From positions 1-23,471 of IMG/VR virus record IMGVR_UViG_3300025785_000099: a stretch of 23,471 nucleotides of DNA; one strand, given 5' to 3'. Below are positions 1,322 through 21,926 of the stretch, piece after piece. This stretch comes from a virus. The position numbers and the translations under genes were made by a program. Position 1 is the stretch's first letter; the number at the start of each line of letters is the position of its first letter. The notes under the pieces were generated by a model. That model was not told where the DNA came from and did no database searches. It saw only the letters and a program-made list of their open reading frames with translations.

Positions 1322-1394
1322 ACCTGTCAAGCAAGCCGTGGCAATTGCATACTCTGAAAAGCGGGAAGCTGCCAAAAAGCCTAAAAAGAAATAA
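1251..1394 (+). CDS. Small basic protein (47 aa), overlapping gene
   Basis: ATG at 1251, with AAGGA at 1238-1242 at good spacing, opens a 47-codon frame ending in TAA at 1392-1394. The protein begins MPLIKSKSDKAFKENIKAEV, continues KAGKPVKQAVAIAYSEKR and ends in a Lys-rich tail (AAKKPKKK). This pattern, with KSxSxKAFxxNI, KAGKPxKQAVAIAYS and a basic tail, recurs as a small stand-alone protein in many environmental phages as I remember them; its function is unknown to me. Net charge is strongly positive, so nucleic-acid binding is possible. It overlaps the preceding gene by 71 bases in another frame. Confidence 0.75.
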   Translation: MPLIKSKSDKAFKENIKAEVKAGKPVKQAVAIAYSEKREAAKKPKKK

Positions 1395-1417
1395 AATCGG
1401 GTAAACCGAGGATTTCT

Positions 1418-2212
1418 ATGCCAACATTAGCCGACTTGCTGCAACTTCAACAAAATGCCAACGCTTATGTTGGCTATCCGCAATTGCAGCGCCAAGCAGC
1501 AAGGATGCAGCAAGCGCAAGCTGGAAGAATTCCTGAAAACTTGCAAGACCCAAGAACTTATGGTTTTGTGCGGGGAATGTTGGGAAGTAGCCCTGATGAT
1601 TTGGGAATGAGTGTAATGTCCCCAAATACAGCAAAAGCTAAAGAAGCTGCTTATTACGGCAATCAATTGTCTAATCTTGCTCAAATTGCGCCAGCCGCTG
1701 CGCCTGCGCTTAAGGGTTATGGAAAACTTGCTGGCGAAGCTATAAATGACGCTATGGTTTATGGTACAGGCCCATTAGCCAAAATAACACCACAATCCAT
1801 GAAAATGGTTGAGGATACGGCTTATAAAGGTAGTCACGTTGCGCCAAATTGGAAAACTTACGGTGCGCCATTACATGATCTAACACAAATCATGCCAGCA
1901 GACGTTTATTCTCAATCTGGTAAAGAACTTTATGGTGTTGGTGATAGATTAACTGATTCTGAATGGCGAATTGCCGCCCTAAAAGCTAGAAACAAACCAG
2001 ACGCAATGATTGACGTTTATCGTGCTGTACCGAAAGGCGTGAAAGACATTAATCATGGCGATTGGGTAACAACAAGCCCTAACTATGCTAAATGGCATGG
2101 TGAGAACGTCTTGGATGGTGATTACGATATTGTAAAAAAATCCGTAAAAGCCAAAACTCTTTCAACAGAAGGTTATCCGTATGAATTCGGATATCACGAA
2201 AATAATGACTGA
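1418..2212 (+). CDS. Putative mono-ADP-ribosyltransferase, possible virion cargo
   Basis: A 264-aa protein; GAGG at 1408-1411 precedes the ATG. The C-terminal part has the layout of R-S-E type ADP-ribosyltransferases: VYRAVPKG with Arg202, then GDWVTTSPNYA with the S-T-S-like TTS at 218-220, and YEFGYHE with candidate catalytic Glu256. Such enzymes move ADP-ribose from NAD+ to a target protein; T4 Alt, ModA and ModB are phage examples that modify host RNA polymerase and other proteins. The N-terminus (TLADLLQLQQNANAY) followed by a Gln/Ala-rich helix resembles the 445-aa putative ejection protein at 18433. No signal peptide is visible. The gene is richer in A+T than the terminase genes after it. 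The fold is an inference from motifs; activity and target are unknown. Confidence 0.6.
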   Translation: MPTLADLLQLQQNANAYVGYPQLQRQAARMQQAQAGRIPENLQDPRTYGFVRGMLGSSPDDLGMSVMSPNTAKAKEAAYYGNQLSNLAQIAPAAAPALKGYGKLAGEAINDAMVYGTGPLAKITPQSMKMVEDTAYKGSHVAPNWKTYGAPLHDLTQIMPADVYSQSGKELYGVGDRLTDSEWRIAALKARNKPDAMIDVYRAVPKGVKDINHGDWVTTSPNYAKWHGENVLDGDYDIVKKSVKAKTLSTEGYPYEFGYHENND

Positions 2213-2675
2213 AGTAAAACGCCCAGTAGGTAGACCAAGCCTGTTCAAAGAAGAATACTCTGATCAATTGATTGAGTATTTTGATATTGAGCCGTATGAG
2301 CGCAGACCTTTATTGGATGCTCAAGGTAATGAAAAAGGCTCAGAGATTGTTGCTGCCAAATTTCCTACATTGGCACGTTTTGCCATAAAAATAGGCGTGA
2401 CAAGAGAGACGCTTCATGAATGGGCGACAGCCAAAAATGAGGATGGAGAACTAAAGCATCCTGATTTTTCTTACGCCTATAAAAGAGCAAAAGATTTTCA
2501 AGAGGCAATACTTGTTGAGGGCGCAATGGCTAACGCATTTCATGCCAATTTCAGCATCTTTACCGCTAAAAACGTATTGGGATGGCGAGACAAGATGGAG
2601 CAGGAAATTACAGGGGTGGATGGTGCTCCATTGCTGACAGGCATCCAAGTCACATTCGTCAAACCTAATGAGTGA
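2181..2675 (+). CDS. terS: Terminase small subunit
   Basis: A 164-aa protein placed directly before the large terminase, matching the size of P22 gp3 (162 aa). Residues 14-35 (RPVGRPSLFKEEYSDQL) lead to an insert, then a helix-turn-helix-like segment, FPTLARFAIKIGVTRETLHEWA in pieces at 61-82, and the conserved-looking NANFSIFTAKNVLGWRDK region (here HANFSIFTAK, NVLGWRDK at 121-138). The small subunit recognises packaging sites on phage DNA and hands it to the large subunit. I used ATG 2181 because AGAAGG lies 8 bases upstream; ATG 2205 (MTEVKRPVGRPS) is a plausible alternative and would make an 8-base overlap with the upstream stop. It overlaps the large subunit by 8 bases (ATGAGTGA). Confidence 0.85.
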   Translation: MNSDITKIMTEVKRPVGRPSLFKEEYSDQLIEYFDIEPYERRPLLDAQGNEKGSEIVAAKFPTLARFAIKIGVTRETLHEWATAKNEDGELKHPDFSYAYKRAKDFQEAILVEGAMANAFHANFSIFTAKNVLGWRDKMEQEITGVDGAPLLTGIQVTFVKPNE

Positions 2676-3963
2676 CGTAAAGACCGCCATTGCTAACGCA
2701 CAGTTTCCAGCCAAGCTGGAGTGCTTATTCAACCCTAAGAATTCCCGCTATCGAGTGCTGTATGGTGGTCGTGGCGGCGCTAAGTCATGGGGGGTGGCTA
2801 GAGCATTGCTGATTAAAGGCGCTCAAGCACCATTGCGGATTCTTTGCGCTCGTGAGTTTCAGACTTCTATCAAAGATTCAGTCCACAAGCTGCTGTGCGA
2901 CCAGATCGTTGATATGGGTTTGGCTGGCTTTTACGAGATTACCGAGAAGTCCATCAAAGGCAAAAACGGCACAGAGTTCTTTTTTGTTGGCCTACGGAAC
3001 AACGTGGTTAACGTCAAATCCATTGAGGGCGTGGATGTGTGTTGGGTTGAAGAAGCACAGACGGTCAGCCGCAATAGCTGGAACGTGCTGATTCCTACCA
3101 TTCGTAAGGAGCAGTCCGAGATTTGGGTGACGTTTAACCCCGAGTTGGAGACAGACGAGACTTACCAGCGGTTTGTGGCTAACCCACCCGCCAACGCCAT
3201 TGTCCAAAAGATCAATTGGTCGGATAACCCTTGGTTTCCTGATACGCTCAAAGACGAGATGCTGGCGCTAAAGTCACGCGACCCTGCGGCGCATAGAATC
3301 GTTTGGGAAGGCTTCTGCCGCATGACGGTGGACGGTGCTATCTTCGGCAAAGAAATGCAAATGGCCGAGTTGGACAGCCGAATCACTAACGTGCCATACG
3401 ATGCTTCTAAGCCTGTTCACGCCGTATTCGACTTGGGTTGGGCAGATATGACCTCAGTCTGGTTTGTTCAGTTTATTGGCATGGAAACACGCCTGATTCG
3501 CTACATTGAGGTCAATCAAACCACAATGACGGACATTCTGGCGAAGATGCAGACCTACGGCTATCTCTACGATACCCTATGGTTGCCACACGATGCCCAA
3601 AATAAGACGCTGGCATCGTCAGGTCGCAGTATTGAGGACATTGTGAGGGCAGCAGGCTACAAGACTAAGGTTTTGGAGCGTGTGCCTGTGGTGGATTCGA
3701 TCAACGCTGCAAGAACGATATTCAGGTCGTGTTATTTTGATAGAGATAATTGTGCCGAAGGGTTACAATGCCTCCGACACTATCGTTATGAAGTTGACTC
3801 CGAGACAGGCCAATTTAGCAGAACGCCTCTCCATGACCATTACAGTCACGGTGCAGACGCATTTAGATATATCGGGTTAATGGTGAATGAGCCTAGAGGC
3901 AGGCAGCGTCAAAAATCTGTGCCGCAGAACTATGGCGGCGCACACTCTTGGATGGGTAATTAA
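2668..3963 (+). CDS. terL: Terminase large subunit (ATPase and nuclease)
   Basis: A 431-aa protein. The ATPase domain shows Walker A GGRGGAKS at 33-40, Walker B with the catalytic acid in VDVCWVEEAQ at 122-131, and the coupling motif WVTFNPE at 153-159. The C-terminal RNase H-like nuclease shows acidic residues in VFDLGWAD (Asp255), WLPHDAQ (Asp309) and SHGADAFRY (Asp397). It resembles the PBSX/XtmB-like group of large terminases. It cuts concatemeric phage DNA and pumps it through the portal by ATP hydrolysis. The length is complete. Its start overlaps the small subunit stop, so translation is probably coupled; no clear independent ribosome binding site is visible. The portal gene follows with no gap. 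Confidence 0.95.
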   Translation: MSDVKTAIANAQFPAKLECLFNPKNSRYRVLYGGRGGAKSWGVARALLIKGAQAPLRILCAREFQTSIKDSVHKLLCDQIVDMGLAGFYEITEKSIKGKNGTEFFFVGLRNNVVNVKSIEGVDVCWVEEAQTVSRNSWNVLIPTIRKEQSEIWVTFNPELETDETYQRFVANPPANAIVQKINWSDNPWFPDTLKDEMLALKSRDPAAHRIVWEGFCRMTVDGAIFGKEMQMAELDSRITNVPYDASKPVHAVFDLGWADMTSVWFVQFIGMETRLIRYIEVNQTTMTDILAKMQTYGYLYDTLWLPHDAQNKTLASSGRSIEDIVRAAGYKTKVLERVPVVDSINAARTIFRSCYFDRDNCAEGLQCLRHYRYEVDSETGQFSRTPLHDHYSHGADAFRYIGLMVNEPRGRQRQKSVPQNYGGAHSWMGN

Positions 3964-6069
3964 ATGGCTGAATTCAATGAAAGCTCTTTGAGCGATTACG
4001 ACCCTCGAATTGACGAGGCTATCCAGTTTTTGCGTTTGGCGAACGATGCCGACACAATGAATCGCCAAGAAGCATTGGAAGATTTGAAGTTTGTCAACGG
4101 CGACCAATGGCCTGTTGAACTGCAAAACAGCCGCAACCTTGAATCTCGCCCTGTGCTGACGATTAACAAACTTGATGGTTATTGCCGCCAAGTGGTCAAC
4201 CAGATTCGCCAGCAGCGCCCACGCCCTAAAGTGCATGGCATGAACAGCCAAGCAGACGAAAAGACCGCGCAAGTCATCCAAGGCATCATCCGCCACATTG
4301 AAGCCAATTCCAATGCTGATAACGCCTATGACACAGCCACAGATTACGCTGTTCGCATGGGTTGGGGCTATATCCGTCTGCGTACAGATTACGTGAGTGA
4401 CGACTCATTTGACCAAGAAATCTACATTGAGCCGATTGACAACCCATTCACCGTCTATTACGACATTAACTCAATCATGCCTGATGGGTCTGATGCAGAG
4501 CGTTGTTTGATTACAACAATGATGCGTAAGGCTGATTTCAGCAAGCTCTACCCTGATGCTGAAGTCACATCGTTCACACAGCGCGGCACTGGTGACAGCC
4601 AATCGGAATGGATTACCAAAGAGGATATTCGCCTCGCTGAGTATTACTACATGGTGCGTGAACGCGCCAAACTGTATATGCTCAGTGACGGTTCGGCTAC
4701 CTTTGCGACTGACAAAGACTTTTTCAAACGCCTTGAAAACATGGGCATTGAGATCATTGACGAGCGTGAGTCGGTCAAGAAGTCGGTTAAGTACTGCAAA
4801 CTGACAGCCAACGAGATTTTGGAAGAAGGCGAATGGGCGGGTAAATACCTACCCATTATTCCTGTTTACGGTCGCCATGTGATTGTGGGCGACAAGCGCA
4901 AAAAGTTCGGAATGGTGCGTCACGCCAAAGATGCCCAACGTATGTACAACTTCTGGCAAACCTCGCTGACTGAATCAGTCGCCCTTGCGCCCAAAGCCAA
5001 GTGGATTATGGCTGAAGGCCAAGATGAGGGGCATGAAAACGATTGGGCGCAGGCCAACATCAAGTCATTCCCGCTGTTGCGCTACAAACAGACGGACATT
5101 GACGGTCGCCAAGCGCCACCGCCTACCCGCTTGCAGCCAGAGCCACCGCCTGCTGGCATTTTGGAGGCCACAGGGCTAATTGACCAAGATATTAAGGTCT
5201 TGATGGGTGTGTTTGACCCTGCTCAACTGAAGCAAGGCAACATTTCAGGCAAGGCTTTGAACGGTCAGCAACAGCAAGTCGACCTCAACAACTTTGACTT
5301 TTACGACAATTTGTGTAAATCGCAGGCTCAAGTGGCTCGTGCCATTCTTGACCTTATCCCCAAAATCTACGATACCGAGCGTGTTATGCGGATTATTGGC
5401 GATGACGGTAAGCCTGAGTTGGTGACGGTTAACGAGCGTGATGCCGTGAACAACCTCATGAAAAACGACTTGACTGTGGGTCTTTACGATGTGGTGATGG
5501 ACACAGGCCCAGGCTACAACAGCAAGCGCCAAGAGGCTTTGGAGACCATTACGCCCATCTTGTCGGCAGACCCACAGCTTATGTCTCAGATTGGCGATTT
5601 GTGGTTCAGGAACATGGACTTCCCTGGCGCAGACGTTATCGCAGACCGCTTGGCTACGCTCAACCCATTGTCTAAGATTGACGAAAAATCGGATGTGCCA
5701 CCGCAAATCCAGATGGCTATGGCTCAGGCTCAGGCGCAAGTCCAACAAATGCAGCAGAAAATGCAGCAAATGGAAATTGCCATGAAACAACGTGCTGACA
5801 TCGAGCAAGTCAAGCAAGACGCTGAGACTAAGCGCGAACTGATGCGCCAGACAGCCAAGGCACACAATACCGAGACAATGGCAGAGGTCAAGGTTAACGA
5901 CCAGAATACCCGCGCCATTACTTCACAAAACAAAGTGGAAATTGAAGCGATCATGGAATTGCTGCTTCACCACATGGACACCAAGCGTCTTGAGAAGGAA
6001 ATTCAAGTGCGTAATGCGGAACAATACGCTTATGCAAATCAGGCTAATCAAGACATTGCAAATCAATAA
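3964..6069 (+). CDS. Portal protein, P22 type
   Basis: A 701-aa protein (P22 gp1 is 725 aa) beginning one base after the terminase stop. The N-terminal region contains EALEDLKFVNGDQWP and RPVLTINKLDGYCRQVVNQI followed by RQQRPRPKVHG, the typical start of P22-type portals. A middle region includes IEPIDNPFTVYYDINS and the stem/wing features expected of the family. From about residue 580 the sequence turns Gln/Met/Ala rich (AQAQAQVQQMQQKMQQMEIA) and is probably a long coiled-coil barrel, as in the P22 portal C-terminus. The dodecameric ring sits at one capsid vertex, conducts DNA and anchors the tail and terminase. Assignment rests on remembered family signatures plus position. Confidence 0.9.
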   Translation: MAEFNESSLSDYDPRIDEAIQFLRLANDADTMNRQEALEDLKFVNGDQWPVELQNSRNLESRPVLTINKLDGYCRQVVNQIRQQRPRPKVHGMNSQADEKTAQVIQGIIRHIEANSNADNAYDTATDYAVRMGWGYIRLRTDYVSDDSFDQEIYIEPIDNPFTVYYDINSIMPDGSDAERCLITTMMRKADFSKLYPDAEVTSFTQRGTGDSQSEWITKEDIRLAEYYYMVRERAKLYMLSDGSATFATDKDFFKRLENMGIEIIDERESVKKSVKYCKLTANEILEEGEWAGKYLPIIPVYGRHVIVGDKRKKFGMVRHAKDAQRMYNFWQTSLTESVALAPKAKWIMAEGQDEGHENDWAQANIKSFPLLRYKQTDIDGRQAPPPTRLQPEPPPAGILEATGLIDQDIKVLMGVFDPAQLKQGNISGKALNGQQQQVDLNNFDFYDNLCKSQAQVARAILDLIPKIYDTERVMRIIGDDGKPELVTVNERDAVNNLMKNDLTVGLYDVVMDTGPGYNSKRQEALETITPILSADPQLMSQIGDLWFRNMDFPGADVIADRLATLNPLSKIDEKSDVPPQIQMAMAQAQAQVQQMQQKMQQMEIAMKQRADIEQVKQDAETKRELMRQTAKAHNTETMAEVKVNDQNTRAITSQNKVEIEAIMELLLHHMDTKRLEKEIQVRNAEQYAYANQANQDIANQ

Positions 6070-6136: not shown

Positions 6137-7042
6137 ATGTCCGAAAACCAAGCAGGTCAAGTATTGACTAGCGAAAATGCGGCTGAGTTCTATGCACAAA
6201 AACTGGGTTTAGCCCAAGCAAATTCCGAGCCTGTGGCTGTTGTTGAGGAAACTCCAACAGAGCCAGTGTTGGAAGAAGTTAGTGGGAGTGAGCCAGAGGA
6301 AGCGAAAGAGGAAGCCAAGCCAGAGGGTGAACGGAAACAGAATCCGAAACTCGAACGGAGGTTTTCAGAGATTACCAAGCAGCGTGAAGAAGCGCGTAAA
6401 GAAGCGCAACGTGAACGCGAACAAAGGCAAGCTCTGGAAGAACGTTTAGCGGCTCTTGAGAGACAAACACAGCCCCAAAAGGCTGCGCCTGTTGACGAAG
6501 AACCGCAACCTAGCCAGTTTCAGGATGCGTTTGAATATGCGAAGGCTCTTGCAGAGTATTCGACAGAAAAAGCGCTTCAGGAACGAGATAGGCGTGATGC
6601 TGAGGAAAAAGCTGCTGCCCAACGACAAAAAGTTTATGAGACTTGGGGTCAAAAAGTACAGCAAGCCAAAGCAGAACTGCCTGATTTTGACGATATGGTG
6701 GCATCAAGTGACGTAGTTGTAAGCGATTCGGTACGTGATGCAATTCTCGAGAGCGATGTAGGCCCAAAAATCCTGTATCACTTAGCCGAGAACTCAGACC
6801 TCGCCAAAAAGATTGCTGGTATGACGGAAAAAGCCGCCATGAAAGAGTTGGGGAAACTGGAGGCAAGGTTTGAAGCCAAGCCTGAAGAAGTAAAGCCTGT
6901 GGTTAAAAGTAAAGCGCCAGCGCCAATTCAACCGATTCGCACTGCGGCTGGAGTAGCGGATGTGGCTATTGACTCAAACGGTCAATTTCACGGAACTTAC
7001 TCACAGTGGAAAGCAGCACGAAAACAAGGTCGAATTCGTTGA
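6137..7042 (+). CDS. Scaffolding protein
   Basis: A 301-aa protein between portal and coat, the expected place and size for a scaffold (P22 gp8 is 303 aa). It has an acidic, Pro/Glu-rich N-terminal third (PTEPVLEEVSGSEPEEAKEE), a long charged coiled coil (roughly residues 70-115, ERRFSEITKQREEARKEAQR), further helices, a Pro/Lys/Ala linker near 250-265, and a basic C-terminal tail ending SQWKAARKQGRIR. In P22 a basic C-terminal helix-loop-helix of the scaffold binds coat protein, so the tail here probably does the same. Scaffold directs procapsid assembly and leaves before DNA packaging. The call relies on architecture and synteny. GGGAA at 6128-6132 serves as ribosome binding site. Confidence 0.8.
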   Translation: MSENQAGQVLTSENAAEFYAQKLGLAQANSEPVAVVEETPTEPVLEEVSGSEPEEAKEEAKPEGERKQNPKLERRFSEITKQREEARKEAQREREQRQALEERLAALERQTQPQKAAPVDEEPQPSQFQDAFEYAKALAEYSTEKALQERDRRDAEEKAAAQRQKVYETWGQKVQQAKAELPDFDDMVASSDVVVSDSVRDAILESDVGPKILYHLAENSDLAKKIAGMTEKAAMKELGKLEARFEAKPEEVKPVVKSKAPAPIQPIRTAAGVADVAIDSNGQFHGTYSQWKAARKQGRIR

Positions 7043-17593: not shown

Positions 17594-18430
17594 ATGCCTT
17601 TAGGTTCTCTTACTGGCGCGGCAATTATGGGAGGCGGTAGCCTTTTGGGTGGATTGCTTGGTGCAGGCGCTTCTCAAAATGCAGCCAATACCCAAGCTAA
17701 TGCCGCTTTGCAAGCTGCTCAAATTCAGCAAAATATGTTCAACACGCAGAACGCGCAACTTGCGCCGAATCGTGCGGCTGGATATAACGCCCTGAATCAA
17801 CTTGGTGCATTAGGTTCTGGCACATCACAAACCTATGATGCCAACGGTAATCCAACTGGTTCGCAAACTGGTTCAGGTTATTTGACGCACCAATTTAATG
17901 CTCAAGACCTTCAGGCTGGTTTAGCGCCTAACTATGACTTCATGCTTAACCAAGGCCAAATGGCTAACCAACGTGCTGCAAACGTGGGCGGTGGTGCTAT
18001 TGGTGGTAATGCCTTGCAAGGTTTGAATCAATTTACGCAAGATTACGCTGGTAATGCTTATCAAAACGCTTTTAACAACTACCAGACACAGCGCACAGGC
18101 ATTTACAACACTTTGGCTGGTATTGCTGGCTTGGGTCAAAACGCTCAAAATACAACTGCTAACTTGGCCTCCAACACTGCTGGCGCATTAGGCCAAACAG
18201 CTATTGGTGGCGCGGCTGCTCAAGCGGCTGGAACTATTGGGGCAGCAAACGCTTTGTCTGGCGGTTTGCAGGGCGCTGGAAACGCTTACTTTTTAAACAA
18301 TTTGTTGAATAAAAATCAAGGAGGCTATACGCCTTCTTCAATGCCAGTTACACCTGTTTCGCAATTGGATTACAGTTTGCAACCAACGCAACCGTTAAAC
18401 AATTTTGGCGCTAATTTAATTTCGGAGTAA
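17594..18430 (+). CDS. Internal virion / DNA-transfer protein (P22 gp7-like position)
   Basis: A 278-aa protein with AAGGGG upstream. It opens with a Gly-rich hydrophobic segment (LTGAAIMGGGSLLGGLLGAG, residues 6-25), then an Ala/Asn/Gln-rich helical stretch (ASQNAANTQANAALQAAQIQ) and QLAPNRAAGYNALNQLGALG. The remainder is rich in Gly, Ala, Asn and Gln and has a Pro-rich C-terminus. This architecture is typical of podovirus proteins annotated as DNA transfer or ejection proteins, which are packed in the head and injected to form a channel across the cell envelope. It heads a run of three such genes, matching the P22 order gp7-gp20-gp16. Sequence similarity to P22 gp7 itself is not evident to me. 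Confidence 0.7.
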   Translation: MPLGSLTGAAIMGGGSLLGGLLGAGASQNAANTQANAALQAAQIQQNMFNTQNAQLAPNRAAGYNALNQLGALGSGTSQTYDANGNPTGSQTGSGYLTHQFNAQDLQAGLAPNYDFMLNQGQMANQRAANVGGGAIGGNALQGLNQFTQDYAGNAYQNAFNNYQTQRTGIYNTLAGIAGLGQNAQNTTANLASNTAGALGQTAIGGAAAQAAGTIGAANALSGGLQGAGNAYFLNNLLNKNQGGYTPSSMPVTPVSQLDYSLQPTQPLNNFGANLISE

Positions 18431-18432
18431 AC

Positions 18433-19770
18433 ATGGCTGACTTAACCACAACTCCTGTTGCTACGCAGATTCAGCCGCCCAAGAATATGACTCTTGCGGA
18501 CATGGTGAACTTGGCTGGTGGCATCCAAGCATACCAACAATCGCAACAACTTAATCCGTTGCAGCTTCAAAAAGCACAGTTGGAATTGCAACAAGCGCAA
18601 CAAACATCGCCTTTGGCTGTGCGTGAGGCTGCGGCTAGAACATCTACGGCTGAAACTGGGTCTAAAAAAGCAAGTTCAGAATTGAACGCTTACTATCAAG
18701 ATCAAACACGCAAAACTTACGGTGGTTTGTTAACCGACCCTGATTTCAATCCGCAAAATCCCAACCCTGAAGCTATCAAAGAAAAATTAAACGAAGCTAA
18801 GGATTATTTGGTTAACGTCATTGGTGTGCCTGAGCATGAAAGTAAGATGCACGACAAATTGTTGGAGCATATTGATAAACATGGTGCTGCTGGCGCTCAA
18901 CGAGTAATCCAAACAATTGCTAATGGCGTACAACAAGCAGGTACTAATACAGAGCAATTTGGTCAAGTTAACAAAGCGCCCACTTACATTAACCAAGGCC
19001 AGTATGCTGTGCCTGTGTACACATCGCCTTATCAAAGTGGTGGCCCAGGTCAAGCGCCAGCGGTGCAAATGCAATTGCCGCCAACAACTGAAATCGTTAA
19101 TGCTGAAACTGGCGAAAAAGAATTGATTGGAAACACTCCTATCATTAACAGAAAATTAACAACAGCGCTCGGGCCTGCTCAAGCAGCTACTCAAGAAGCC
19201 GCTGGCAATGTTGTTAAGTCTGACATTTTGCAAACAATGTCGGATGCTTCTGCGGCTCAAAACCGCATTGCAACATTCCAAAAAATCAAACAACTTACAC
19301 CTGAATCGTTTACTGGTGTTGGTGGCGAACGCAAAAAATTCTTGTCTGGCTTGGCTCAGTCTGTTGGTATCCCTGTTGCTGAACTTGAAACATCATCCAC
19401 AGACGAATTGGCTAAAAATTCCAAGTTGTTGGCATTGGCTGGCGGCAATACCGATGCTGCTCGTTCAATTGCTGAAATGGCAACACCTAACGCCAAGATG
19501 ACCAAGGAAGCGATGTTGCGCGTTTCAGATCAATTGATTGGCATGGAAAAAATGAAGTTGGCAAAAGCCGCTTACCTTTCTTCTTCAATCAACAACCCTG
19601 CCGAATACAAACGCAAATTGGATACGTTTAACAATTTTTCAGACTTCCGTCTTTTCCAAGAAATGACGCCTGAAGAAGTCGCTAAATTGAAAGCATCTAT
19701 GTCGCCTGCTCAACAACAAGAGATGAGCAACAAAATCAAGCAAGCAAGAGCATTAGGGATTATTCAATAA
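18433..19770 (+). CDS. Putative internal virion (ejection) protein, 445 aa
   Basis: A 445-aa protein starting two bases after the previous stop, with GGAG at 18424-18427. After a short leader it has MTLADMVNLAGGIQAYQQSQ (19-38), followed by a Gln/Leu/Ala-rich amphipathic helix to about residue 66. The middle is mixed and hydrophilic, and the last third is helical with little Cys or Trp. There is no lysozyme or transglycosylase motif that I can see. Position corresponds to P22 gp20. The TLAD segment matches the N-terminus of the ADP-ribosyltransferase-like protein at 1418. An ejection role is inferred from position and composition. Confidence 0.6.
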   Translation: MADLTTTPVATQIQPPKNMTLADMVNLAGGIQAYQQSQQLNPLQLQKAQLELQQAQQTSPLAVREAAARTSTAETGSKKASSELNAYYQDQTRKTYGGLLTDPDFNPQNPNPEAIKEKLNEAKDYLVNVIGVPEHESKMHDKLLEHIDKHGAAGAQRVIQTIANGVQQAGTNTEQFGQVNKAPTYINQGQYAVPVYTSPYQSGGPGQAPAVQMQLPPTTEIVNAETGEKELIGNTPIINRKLTTALGPAQAATQEAAGNVVKSDILQTMSDASAAQNRIATFQKIKQLTPESFTGVGGERKKFLSGLAQSVGIPVAELETSSTDELAKNSKLLALAGGNTDAARSIAEMATPNAKMTKEAMLRVSDQLIGMEKMKLAKAAYLSSSINNPAEYKRKLDTFNNFSDFRLFQEMTPEEVAKLKASMSPAQQQEMSNKIKQARALGIIQ

Positions 19771-21926
19771 TGGGAACTCTAGCCGAATTGTGGGACGCGC
19801 CCACTACTGAAAAAAAGACAACGCAGGATGTTGCTCCTAAGCGCAATGCGTTTTCTACGTATGTGCCTGGTACACAAATCGGCTCAGAAGCCACTTCTAA
19901 CTTAGCTGATTTGTGGGAACAAACACCTGCCACAGAACAGCCAAAAGAAGAACAACAATACGGCATTGTTGCTGATGCCATTAAAAAAGCATTTGAAGCT
20001 CGTCACAAATTTAATCAAACCGTTGCTGGTGTAGGCGAAGCTGGATTGACCGCATTAACTGGCTCTGTTGCTGCTCCATTGGCTGCGGCTACTGGTTTGG
20101 TTTATGGCGCTCGTGGCGGAAATCCAGAAGAACAAGCTCGTAACTTAATGCAGCAAATGACCTATCAGCCAAGAACGGCTAAAGGTCAAGAGTATGTGCA
20201 ATCATTGCAAAATGCGTTTGAAGCATCTAAATTGCCGCCTGTTTTCCCTGAAGCCCAATCATTGGTTGGAGCGCTGCCGAATCGTGCCGCTGTTAAAGCC
20301 GCTATTCCTGAATTTACCATTGAACGTCAGAATGTAAAACCTGTTGTTAATGCAATTGAAAATGTAAAACCTGCCACAGCGGGTAGTGTTGGCTCTGCCA
20401 AAGTTGAGTTCAATCCTTACGCTGGTCAAATTACTGGTGAAGAAAGTGCTCGCGGTCAATTTCCACAGGTAAAACTTTCAAAAACTACGGAAGATGTAAA
20501 GCCACAAGAACAAATAACACGCGCAACTATTGCAAAAGAAATTTTGCAAGAAGGTGGTGTTGATTCAAGTCAAGTAAGACCTGGTGTTGTTACTGGTAAT
20601 GAAAACACATTACGTAATGAACATACAGAAGCAAAATCAGCAAATCCAACGCCAAAAAGCGAATTGTTAAAAAGCCAAATTGCTAATGAGCAAATTGCTT
20701 TGTCCAACTATGCCCAGAAGCGTATTGAGAATACAGGCGCAAGTTCAACACTTGTAACGCCTTATGAACGTGGTGAGCGCATCAACAGTACTTTTACTGG
20801 CGATGAAGGAATTTCTGGTTTTATTAAAGGCGAAAAACAAAAGTTATATGATGAAGTCGCAACCAAAGTTGGCGGCAATCCAATTCAATCGTCTAATGTT
20901 GACGAATTATTTGGCAACAAACAATTTAAGGCTGGCCTTGGTCTGAAAGGCAACGAAGGCGTTGCAAAATCTGCTGAAGAACTTATTAATCTTGCTAAAA
21001 CTGTTGGCTTTCAAGATGAAATGGGTCATGTTCACGCACCAAATACTATTGGTGCATGGATTGCTGTTCAGAAAGCATTGAACAGCGAATGGTCGCCTTC
21101 AAACGCAAAAATTATCCGAACTATTAATCAATCAATTGAGCGTGATATTGGGCAAGCTGGCGGTTTGGAAATGCTTAAAAAAGCAGACAGTTTGCATGAA
21201 GCGGAAAAAGTTTTGTTTGGTTCTAAAGGCATTAAACAAATATTTGGTGACATTGATCCTAATGGAGTTCAAACTGCCACAGCATTTGAGGCAATACCTC
21301 AAAAGTTAAATAGTATGCCTGTTGACCAATGGAAACACATTTACGAAACTGCTGAAAAAATTTCTAAGGGCGCACTTGAAGGGCCTATTGATAAAACTAC
21401 AGGTTTGCCTAAATGGACAATCCCAATTCCTGATGAATTGCGCGTATCTGCACAATCTGCTGTTAATGAAATGCGCGGAAACATTGCTCGTGAAATTTAT
21501 CAAGCTGGCGCTGCTAAAGCTGGTGAATGGAATCAAAACGCAGTCAATAAGATTTTGAACGCTCGCGCTGACAAAATTAAATTAGCTTTTTCACCTGAAG
21601 AACAAAAAGCGTTTCATACACTGAACGTAGGTGGTTATTTAATGCCAGGTGTTCATGGTTATGAAGGCGCTGGTTTGCAAGGTCAGCGTGTTCAAGGAAT
21701 TATTGAGCATAATTTGCCTAAAGCTGGTGCAGCAACTGGAGCAACTATTGGTGGCGCAATTGGTGGGCCAACAGGTGCGGCTGTTGGTGGGTATTTGGGT
21801 GGTAAGGCGGGAACAACAGGTCAACAAATGTTGGCTGCTCGTCATATGACCAAAGAAGCGCAAAAATTAAAAGAACAAATGCAAAATACATCAAAACTTT
21901 CAGACATTGGTAAGGAACAAAAATGA
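19770..21926 (+). CDS. Putative large internal virion (ejection) protein, 718 aa
   Basis: A 718-aa protein whose ATG shares one base with the previous stop (TAATG). A short motif is duplicated near the N-terminus: TLAELWDAP at 3-11 and NLADLWEQT at 44-52. Residues 84-113 (TVAGVGEAGLTALTGSVAAP and on) form a long hydrophobic small-residue segment that could insert in membrane, followed by NPEEQARNLMQQMTYQPRTA. The central region is hydrophilic and helical. Near the C-terminus (652-682) is a glycine-zipper, ATGATIGGAIGGPTGAAVGG, another membrane-interacting type. Position and size suit P22 gp16 (609 aa), which enters the host envelope during ejection. No enzyme motif was found. The coding is notably A+T rich compared with the head genes. 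Confidence 0.6.
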   Translation: MGTLAELWDAPTTEKKTTQDVAPKRNAFSTYVPGTQIGSEATSNLADLWEQTPATEQPKEEQQYGIVADAIKKAFEARHKFNQTVAGVGEAGLTALTGSVAAPLAAATGLVYGARGGNPEEQARNLMQQMTYQPRTAKGQEYVQSLQNAFEASKLPPVFPEAQSLVGALPNRAAVKAAIPEFTIERQNVKPVVNAIENVKPATAGSVGSAKVEFNPYAGQITGEESARGQFPQVKLSKTTEDVKPQEQITRATIAKEILQEGGVDSSQVRPGVVTGNENTLRNEHTEAKSANPTPKSELLKSQIANEQIALSNYAQKRIENTGASSTLVTPYERGERINSTFTGDEGISGFIKGEKQKLYDEVATKVGGNPIQSSNVDELFGNKQFKAGLGLKGNEGVAKSAEELINLAKTVGFQDEMGHVHAPNTIGAWIAVQKALNSEWSPSNAKIIRTINQSIERDIGQAGGLEMLKKADSLHEAEKVLFGSKGIKQIFGDIDPNGVQTATAFEAIPQKLNSMPVDQWKHIYETAEKISKGALEGPIDKTTGLPKWTIPIPDELRVSAQSAVNEMRGNIAREIYQAGAAKAGEWNQNAVNKILNARADKIKLAFSPEEQKAFHTLNVGGYLMPGVHGYEGAGLQGQRVQGIIEHNLPKAGAATGATIGGAIGGPTGAAVGGYLGGKAGTTGQQMLAARHMTKEAQKLKEQMQNTSKLSDIGKEQK

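Follow-up and report, generated by a model that had tools for sequence, protein, structure and literature searches.

A variable cargo slot upstream of terS in freshwater P22-like phages joins exchangeable enzymes to a conserved N-terminal leader

A phage enzyme that is injected usually reveals itself only through proteomics, through the position of its gene or through fusion to a structural protein, and we know of no described route by which single enzymes enter the heads of P22-like phages. For structural proteins, such routes are better defined. In P22, the three ejection proteins all require scaffold, and two of them, gp7 and gp20, enter the procapsid via their N-terminal parts; for T4 IPIII ten N-terminal residues are sufficient (PMC8402733); the P22 procapsid structure contains scaffold columns that have been suggested to dock the ejection proteins (PMC12005531). 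T4 Alt is an ADP-ribosyltransferase (ART) that is packaged with the genome and modifies the host immediately (PMC5512222, PMC9503650). ARTs encoded close to terminase have been predicted to be head-packaged (PMC9503650), and the polyvalent proteins of phages and conjugative elements are predicted to be injected (Iyer et al. 2017, PMC5512222).

Here we consider a 264-aa protein encoded at 1418..2212 of a 23,471-nucleotide IMG/VR fragment (the window, meaning the whole stretch of DNA that was analysed; features given below as start..end lie on its + strand). The protein, defined by its ORF, its relatives (L002-L031) and slot replacement, consists of an N-terminal leader region and a C-terminal ART-like domain, and its gene is one allele of a highly variable single-gene cargo slot located directly 5' of terS in freshwater P22-like phages. 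The most likely reading, which we hold to be probable, is that a scaffold-directed packaging leader is joined to an exchangeable enzyme for injection; this is judged most likely because of the N-terminal precedents of P22 and T4 IPIII and the predictions for polyvalent proteins and for ARTs near terminase. The proposed logic is thus that of T4 Alt. However, no family match to Alt was found for the 264-aa protein (Pfam yields no family for it at E values up to 1), and it is a small single-domain enzyme of a P22-like podovirus, encoded in a swappable slot behind a constant leader. With the polyvalent proteins the slot shares its domain types (ART-PolyVal, LPD23, GNAT and a HExxH-type peptidase), and sister alleles at the locus match the ART-PolyVal and LPD23 domains of the polyvalent effector set. 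Polyvalent proteins, in contrast, are multidomain, with at least two disparate effector domains as their criterion; here a constant short leader precedes one effector at one fixed locus, and a single recognised effector domain is found in the 264-aa protein (Pfam, PHROG). The leader also recalls the T4 capsid targeting sequence, a short N-terminal sequence that sends unrelated proteins into the head, as is proposed here, but it is longer and no sequence relation to T4 has been established; of the window genes scanned, none was recognised as a prohead protease. Finally, N-terminal procapsid incorporation of the P22 ejection proteins is the model for the leader. The 264-aa protein, however, is none of the three, and it is dispensable, since it is missing in near-identical phages.

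The window encodes a coat protein together with a terminase small subunit (terS, 2205..2675), a Terminase_3 large subunit (terL, 2668..3963), a P22-like portal (3964..6069; E 9.6e-175) and a scaffolding protein (phrog_8865, 6137..7042), which is a candidate receptor for the leader by analogy with P22 (PMC8402733). Further downstream, proteins of 278, 445 and 718 aa correspond in order and size to P22 gp7, gp20 and gp16. The first, ejection protein 1 (17594..18430), occupies the gp7 position and matches phrog_598 (DNA ejection); gene order and this match of their neighbour are the basis on which the 445-aa protein (18433..19770, gp20 position, with relatives) and the 718-aa protein (19770..21926, gp16 position) are considered putative ejection proteins 2 and 3. 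(Gene calls came from a simple script, and the counts given throughout are of distinct but related sequences.) The terS ORF as listed (2181-2675) begins 5' of the probable true start; judged by relatives that start MTEVKRPVGRPS, this is the ATG at 2205, which overlaps the stop of the slot gene. A gene for a GroES-like co-chaperonin is present at 822-1106, two genes 5' of the slot gene; relatives, like Xanthomonas phage PBR31, also carry one close to terminase.

The extent of the slot was determined by comparison with relatives that have identical or near-identical portals. Flanking DNA in these phages is 93-97% identical over most of its length, and the flank matches end and resume around 1393..2204. 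The upstream match reaches 1392 (1423 in L043, 1435 in L044) and the downstream match resumes at 2204 (L042, L043) or later (2242 in L041). Between these points, L043 encodes a 346-aa ART-PolyVal protein, which is a different ART, L044 encodes a 285-aa allele, and L041 encodes a GIY-YIG nuclease; in L042 the slot is empty and the upstream sequence directly joins terS. Leader-type slot genes (n=67) show where the slot lies in other relatives: the next recognised gene is terS for 44, terL for 10 and portal for 3, and the remainder are followed by a contig end or an unclassified gene. Overlap between slot gene and terS is mostly four bases, and exactly one leader is present in each of the 24 positive contigs. 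A hypervariable accessory slot that is present or absent among near-identical phages might also be expected if the gene served superinfection exclusion or acted against competitors and was expressed from a prophage or a late operon without virion delivery. We consider this improbable given the position of the slot gene at terS and its overlap with it, the polyvalent-type domains, and the presence of sister domains in ejection-type proteins (see below).

Two other features of this neighbourhood are of note. In near-identical phages the first part of terS is likewise exchanged: the match to L042 and L043 is interrupted from 2242 to 2596, and terS therefore varies together with the slot. In L050, L064, L070, L071, L079 and L102, which have no leader gene, a ParB-like/methyltransferase-like protein lies upstream of terL; this protein, which is found in many leaderless relatives, carries LIPYxNNSRTHSDEQVAQIAASIKEFGWTNPIL near its start.

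Among relatives obtained by enzyme, portal and leader searches, 64 distinct slot proteins share the start MPTLAD. Most of them share an N-terminal leader of ~80 residues (consensus MPTLADIYSAIxxxKRKxxDxxxNPxxSLQQMxGNANDRA, ending near YNPxGM), in which P2, T3, L4, A5, D6 and further residues are at least 90% conserved. The C-termini behind this leader vary: there are two ART types, LPD23/HExxH proteins, GNAT proteins and domains of no assigned family, with Pfam matches to ART-PolyVal in 32 (E <0.001), to LPD23 with a HELQH-type peptidase motif in 8 and to GNAT in 2. Clustering places the window-type ART behind the start of the leader family in 14 members. A leader protein of L084 (3857-4879) has an unassigned C-terminal domain that matches MATCAP (weakly) and phrog_3170. 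The start motif occurs at index 2 in 17 distinct N-termini, a count that includes related proteins, versus ~0.4 expected from the internal rate. In pairs whose C-termini are <25% identical, the leader is 62% identical on average, and codons differ synonymously at 51% of the identical leader residues; this combination argues for selection at the protein level rather than recent copying. The same data bear on the idea that the start is kept simply because alleles recombine at that DNA, the peptide itself being unimportant. Such an account would fit the L044 match, which ends exactly where the MPTLAD codons do, at 1435, but it would not predict a conserved leader of ~80 residues in which half of the identical residues are encoded by different, synonymous codons, and we regard it as very improbable.

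The same ART is found behind other leaders in phages with other portals. In L012 and MW202544, which have SU10-type portals, the window-type ART is encoded just upstream of the terminase genes and is preceded by MADLRATP...NPLTGLS and MADYIGATPQQNPILGLLA; in the L182 lineage it occupies the same slot behind MATLADALKG...STLADPI. Consequently, the leader is specific to the phage lineage and does not travel with the enzyme, as would be expected of a leader that served the enzyme. (By eye, one open frame of the SU10-portal phage, L012:115-1308, contains a GNAT-like stretch and the window-type ART, and its product is possibly a two-enzyme slot protein.) These observations are relevant to another explanation, in which the constant leader would be a module for partner binding, oligomerisation or autoinhibition and the enzymes would act late in the infected cell or in lysogens. 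A leader that is predicted to be helical, with a charged KRK stretch, suits several roles, and the prediction, which is of low confidence and assigns no fold, also counts against the packaging reading. However, one leader serves unrelated enzymes and changes with the phage lineage rather than with the enzyme, and the slot gene is tied to terS, not to early or lysogeny genes. We therefore think this explanation unlikely. In 50,697 isolate phage records the leader consensus, the window leader and two further leaders were all unmatched, apart from one weak match (E 4), and among prokaryote genome contigs none of 139 leader-pattern matches was a relative, so that no host can be named.

Some features of the window protein itself count against a leader-based packaging model. 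It has the start of the leader family (MPTLADL, 1418..1438), which it shares with L044 as DNA to 1435, through codon 6, but its agreement with the main leader stops after these seven residues. The rest (YSA...KRK...NP..SLQQM..ANDRA) is missing, and LQLQQNANAYVGYPQLQRQAARM... is present in its place. After residue seven, the window protein and its relative from L024 carry another N-terminal region, such that residues 1-105 (1418..1732) are 83% identical between the two proteins; in L024 this region is fused to a different C-terminus, but it is the one relative in which the region precedes another domain. AlphaFold models the region with low confidence, with helices predicted at residues 4-9 and 21-35. 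The leader of L043 (MPFLSDLL...FVQHPGQSL...NERA) looks intermediate in sequence.

The C-terminal domain (residues 129-262, 1802..2203) appears ART-like in both fold and residues, and ADP-ribosyltransferase activity is predicted for it. It matches positions 334-463 of the 472-position phrog_2579 profile (E 1.2e-31), and is thus homologous to the C-terminal domain of these mycobacteriophage proteins. In the latter, however, the domain follows a ParB-like part, which is absent from the 264-aa protein; only the C-terminal 130 of the 472 profile positions are matched, and since the domain is ART-like and the ParB part is missing here, the name 'ParB C-terminal domain' for phrog_2579 is misleading. 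Across 20 relatives, Arg202 (2021..2023, in the VYRAVP strand) and Glu256 (2183..2185, in YEFGY) show conservation of at least 90%; a WVTTS-type strand separates the two residues, which are read as the candidate R and catalytic Glu of an R-[ST]-E triad. The AlphaFold model of the domain is confident, with mostly high pLDDT from residue 141, and the VIA-align matches with Z >=2 are mostly entries of the ART superfamily (KptA, Vis, ParT, PARPs and Rhs toxins). Together with the phrog_2579 match and the conserved R and E, this supports the preliminary description, which had called the protein ADP-ribosyltransferase-like. Its proposed comparison of the C-terminal structure with known ARTs gave a mixed outcome: ART-superfamily entries prevail, but the top Z is 4.9, over 72 residues, which counts against the preferred reading, and plain Foldseek of the window model against the PDB gives no significant match. 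A sequence search of the PDB matched nothing. Among viral predicted structures, the window ART domain occurs in large polyvalent-type phage proteins.

That description had also proposed that the enzyme and the 445-aa protein share an encapsidation or ejection signal at their N-termini. The similarity that it reported is present: residues 3-23 of the 264-aa ORF and 20-40 of the 445-aa ORF have 9 identities in 21 ungapped positions, and Gln/Ala-rich sequence with QQAQ follows both segments. The pair ranks best among all N-terminal pairs in the window. However, the pairwise match is weak and suggestive only. BLASTP returns these 21 residues with 9 identities at E 0.87 (as a single comparison), 9/21 is reached in 4.1% of composition shuffles (first 40 x first 60 residues), and the 264-aa protein also reaches 9/21 with the 278-aa protein, elsewhere. 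In relatives of the 445-aa protein, the segment (TLADM...NP, residues 20-42, 18490..18558) is conserved as [ST]L[GA]D[MLI]...NP in the family alignment, but it lies ~17-20 residues in and is thus internal rather than N-terminal. In an ungapped profile test, the best register sets TLADI against SLGDM and gives N-P equal spacing in both, with P values of 0.10 (5 columns) and 0.036 (24 columns), ranging from 0.036 to 0.35 by length; hhalign, in contrast, does not align the leader and 445-aa families (probability 1.2-1.6%, in a different register). Both segments resemble a helix terminated by N-P, and [ST]-x-x-[DE] is the common capping box at the N-terminus of helices. Convergence would thus suffice to explain the shared motif, which may mark two helices that happen to begin with this box. 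Neither pairwise nor profile comparison gives a significant relation between the enzyme and the 445-aa protein, and a homologous signal in the two seems doubtful to us. What stands of the proposal is an N-terminal delivery signal on the ART-like protein, which has good indirect support from the constant leader and exchangeable enzymes, the slot in the head/packaging operon, the lineage-following leader and the sister domains in ejection proteins.

The L077 sister allele, an ART-PolyVal, has as its best structural match a domain in the pre-ejectosome structure solved for cyanophage A4 (Z 8.6, 124 residues, rmsd 3.4), with no sequence match between the two; in vir555 a related ART domain is fused within a 1,974-aa protein whose gene lies two genes beyond that of an annotated internal virion protein; and in Sulfitobacter phage phiGT1 a related ART domain lies within a head-operon protein.

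Ejection protein 3 (the 718-aa protein and its relatives L157-L179 and L269) has a short N-terminal tag of its own, which is phage-specific and repeated within the protein. The 718-aa protein starts M-G-TLAELW, with a first copy, TLAELWD, at 19776..19796 and a second, NLADLWE, from residue 44 (19899..19919; p=0.005). Elsewhere the repeats are DELGQLI (twice) and DPDVAAF-like (twice), and repetition is found at p<=0.01 in 16/23. In L123, L167 and L176 the copies flank an inserted lysozyme-like domain, and a repeat is seen by eye in a virus assigned to an archaeal host (FDTSVLNNPD/FNTSVLGTPD). In the close relative L037 (7413-9329) a 638-aa ejection protein 3 shares its first 211 residues with the 718-aa protein and has a different C-terminus; ejection protein 3 is therefore modular too. 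We considered whether the leader is a copy of this tag. The two agree in the window and in L077, but not in L024, L067, L093 or L007. Simple copying of the tag therefore does not account for the leader; this mismatch within genomes also counts against the preferred reading.

If the leader is a scaffold-directed packaging signal, the slot protein would be made late, together with the head proteins, and its leader would bind to the head during assembly. The most plausible partner is the scaffold, as it is for the P22 ejection proteins. The protein would remain inside the head during DNA entry and exit with or before the DNA at infection, and the enzyme would then immediately ADP-ribosylate a host target. 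These steps, from scaffold binding and packaging to injection, are our inference, as are the activity of the enzyme and its target.

No arrangement in which a constant leader is joined to interchangeable enzymes was found in the literature searched. Whether P22-like and related podoviruses have a general cargo system, with a fixed slot by terS and a lineage-specific leader that addresses arbitrary enzymes to the head, we consider about an even question. If so, injected effectors would be recognisable by their leader alone, like a capsid-targeting counterpart of the trafficking domains of polymorphic toxins. The constant leader with its interchangeable enzymes provides a sequence handle for finding such effectors and a testable address signal, and the slot shows a fast-changing attack locus that near-identical phages fill differently.
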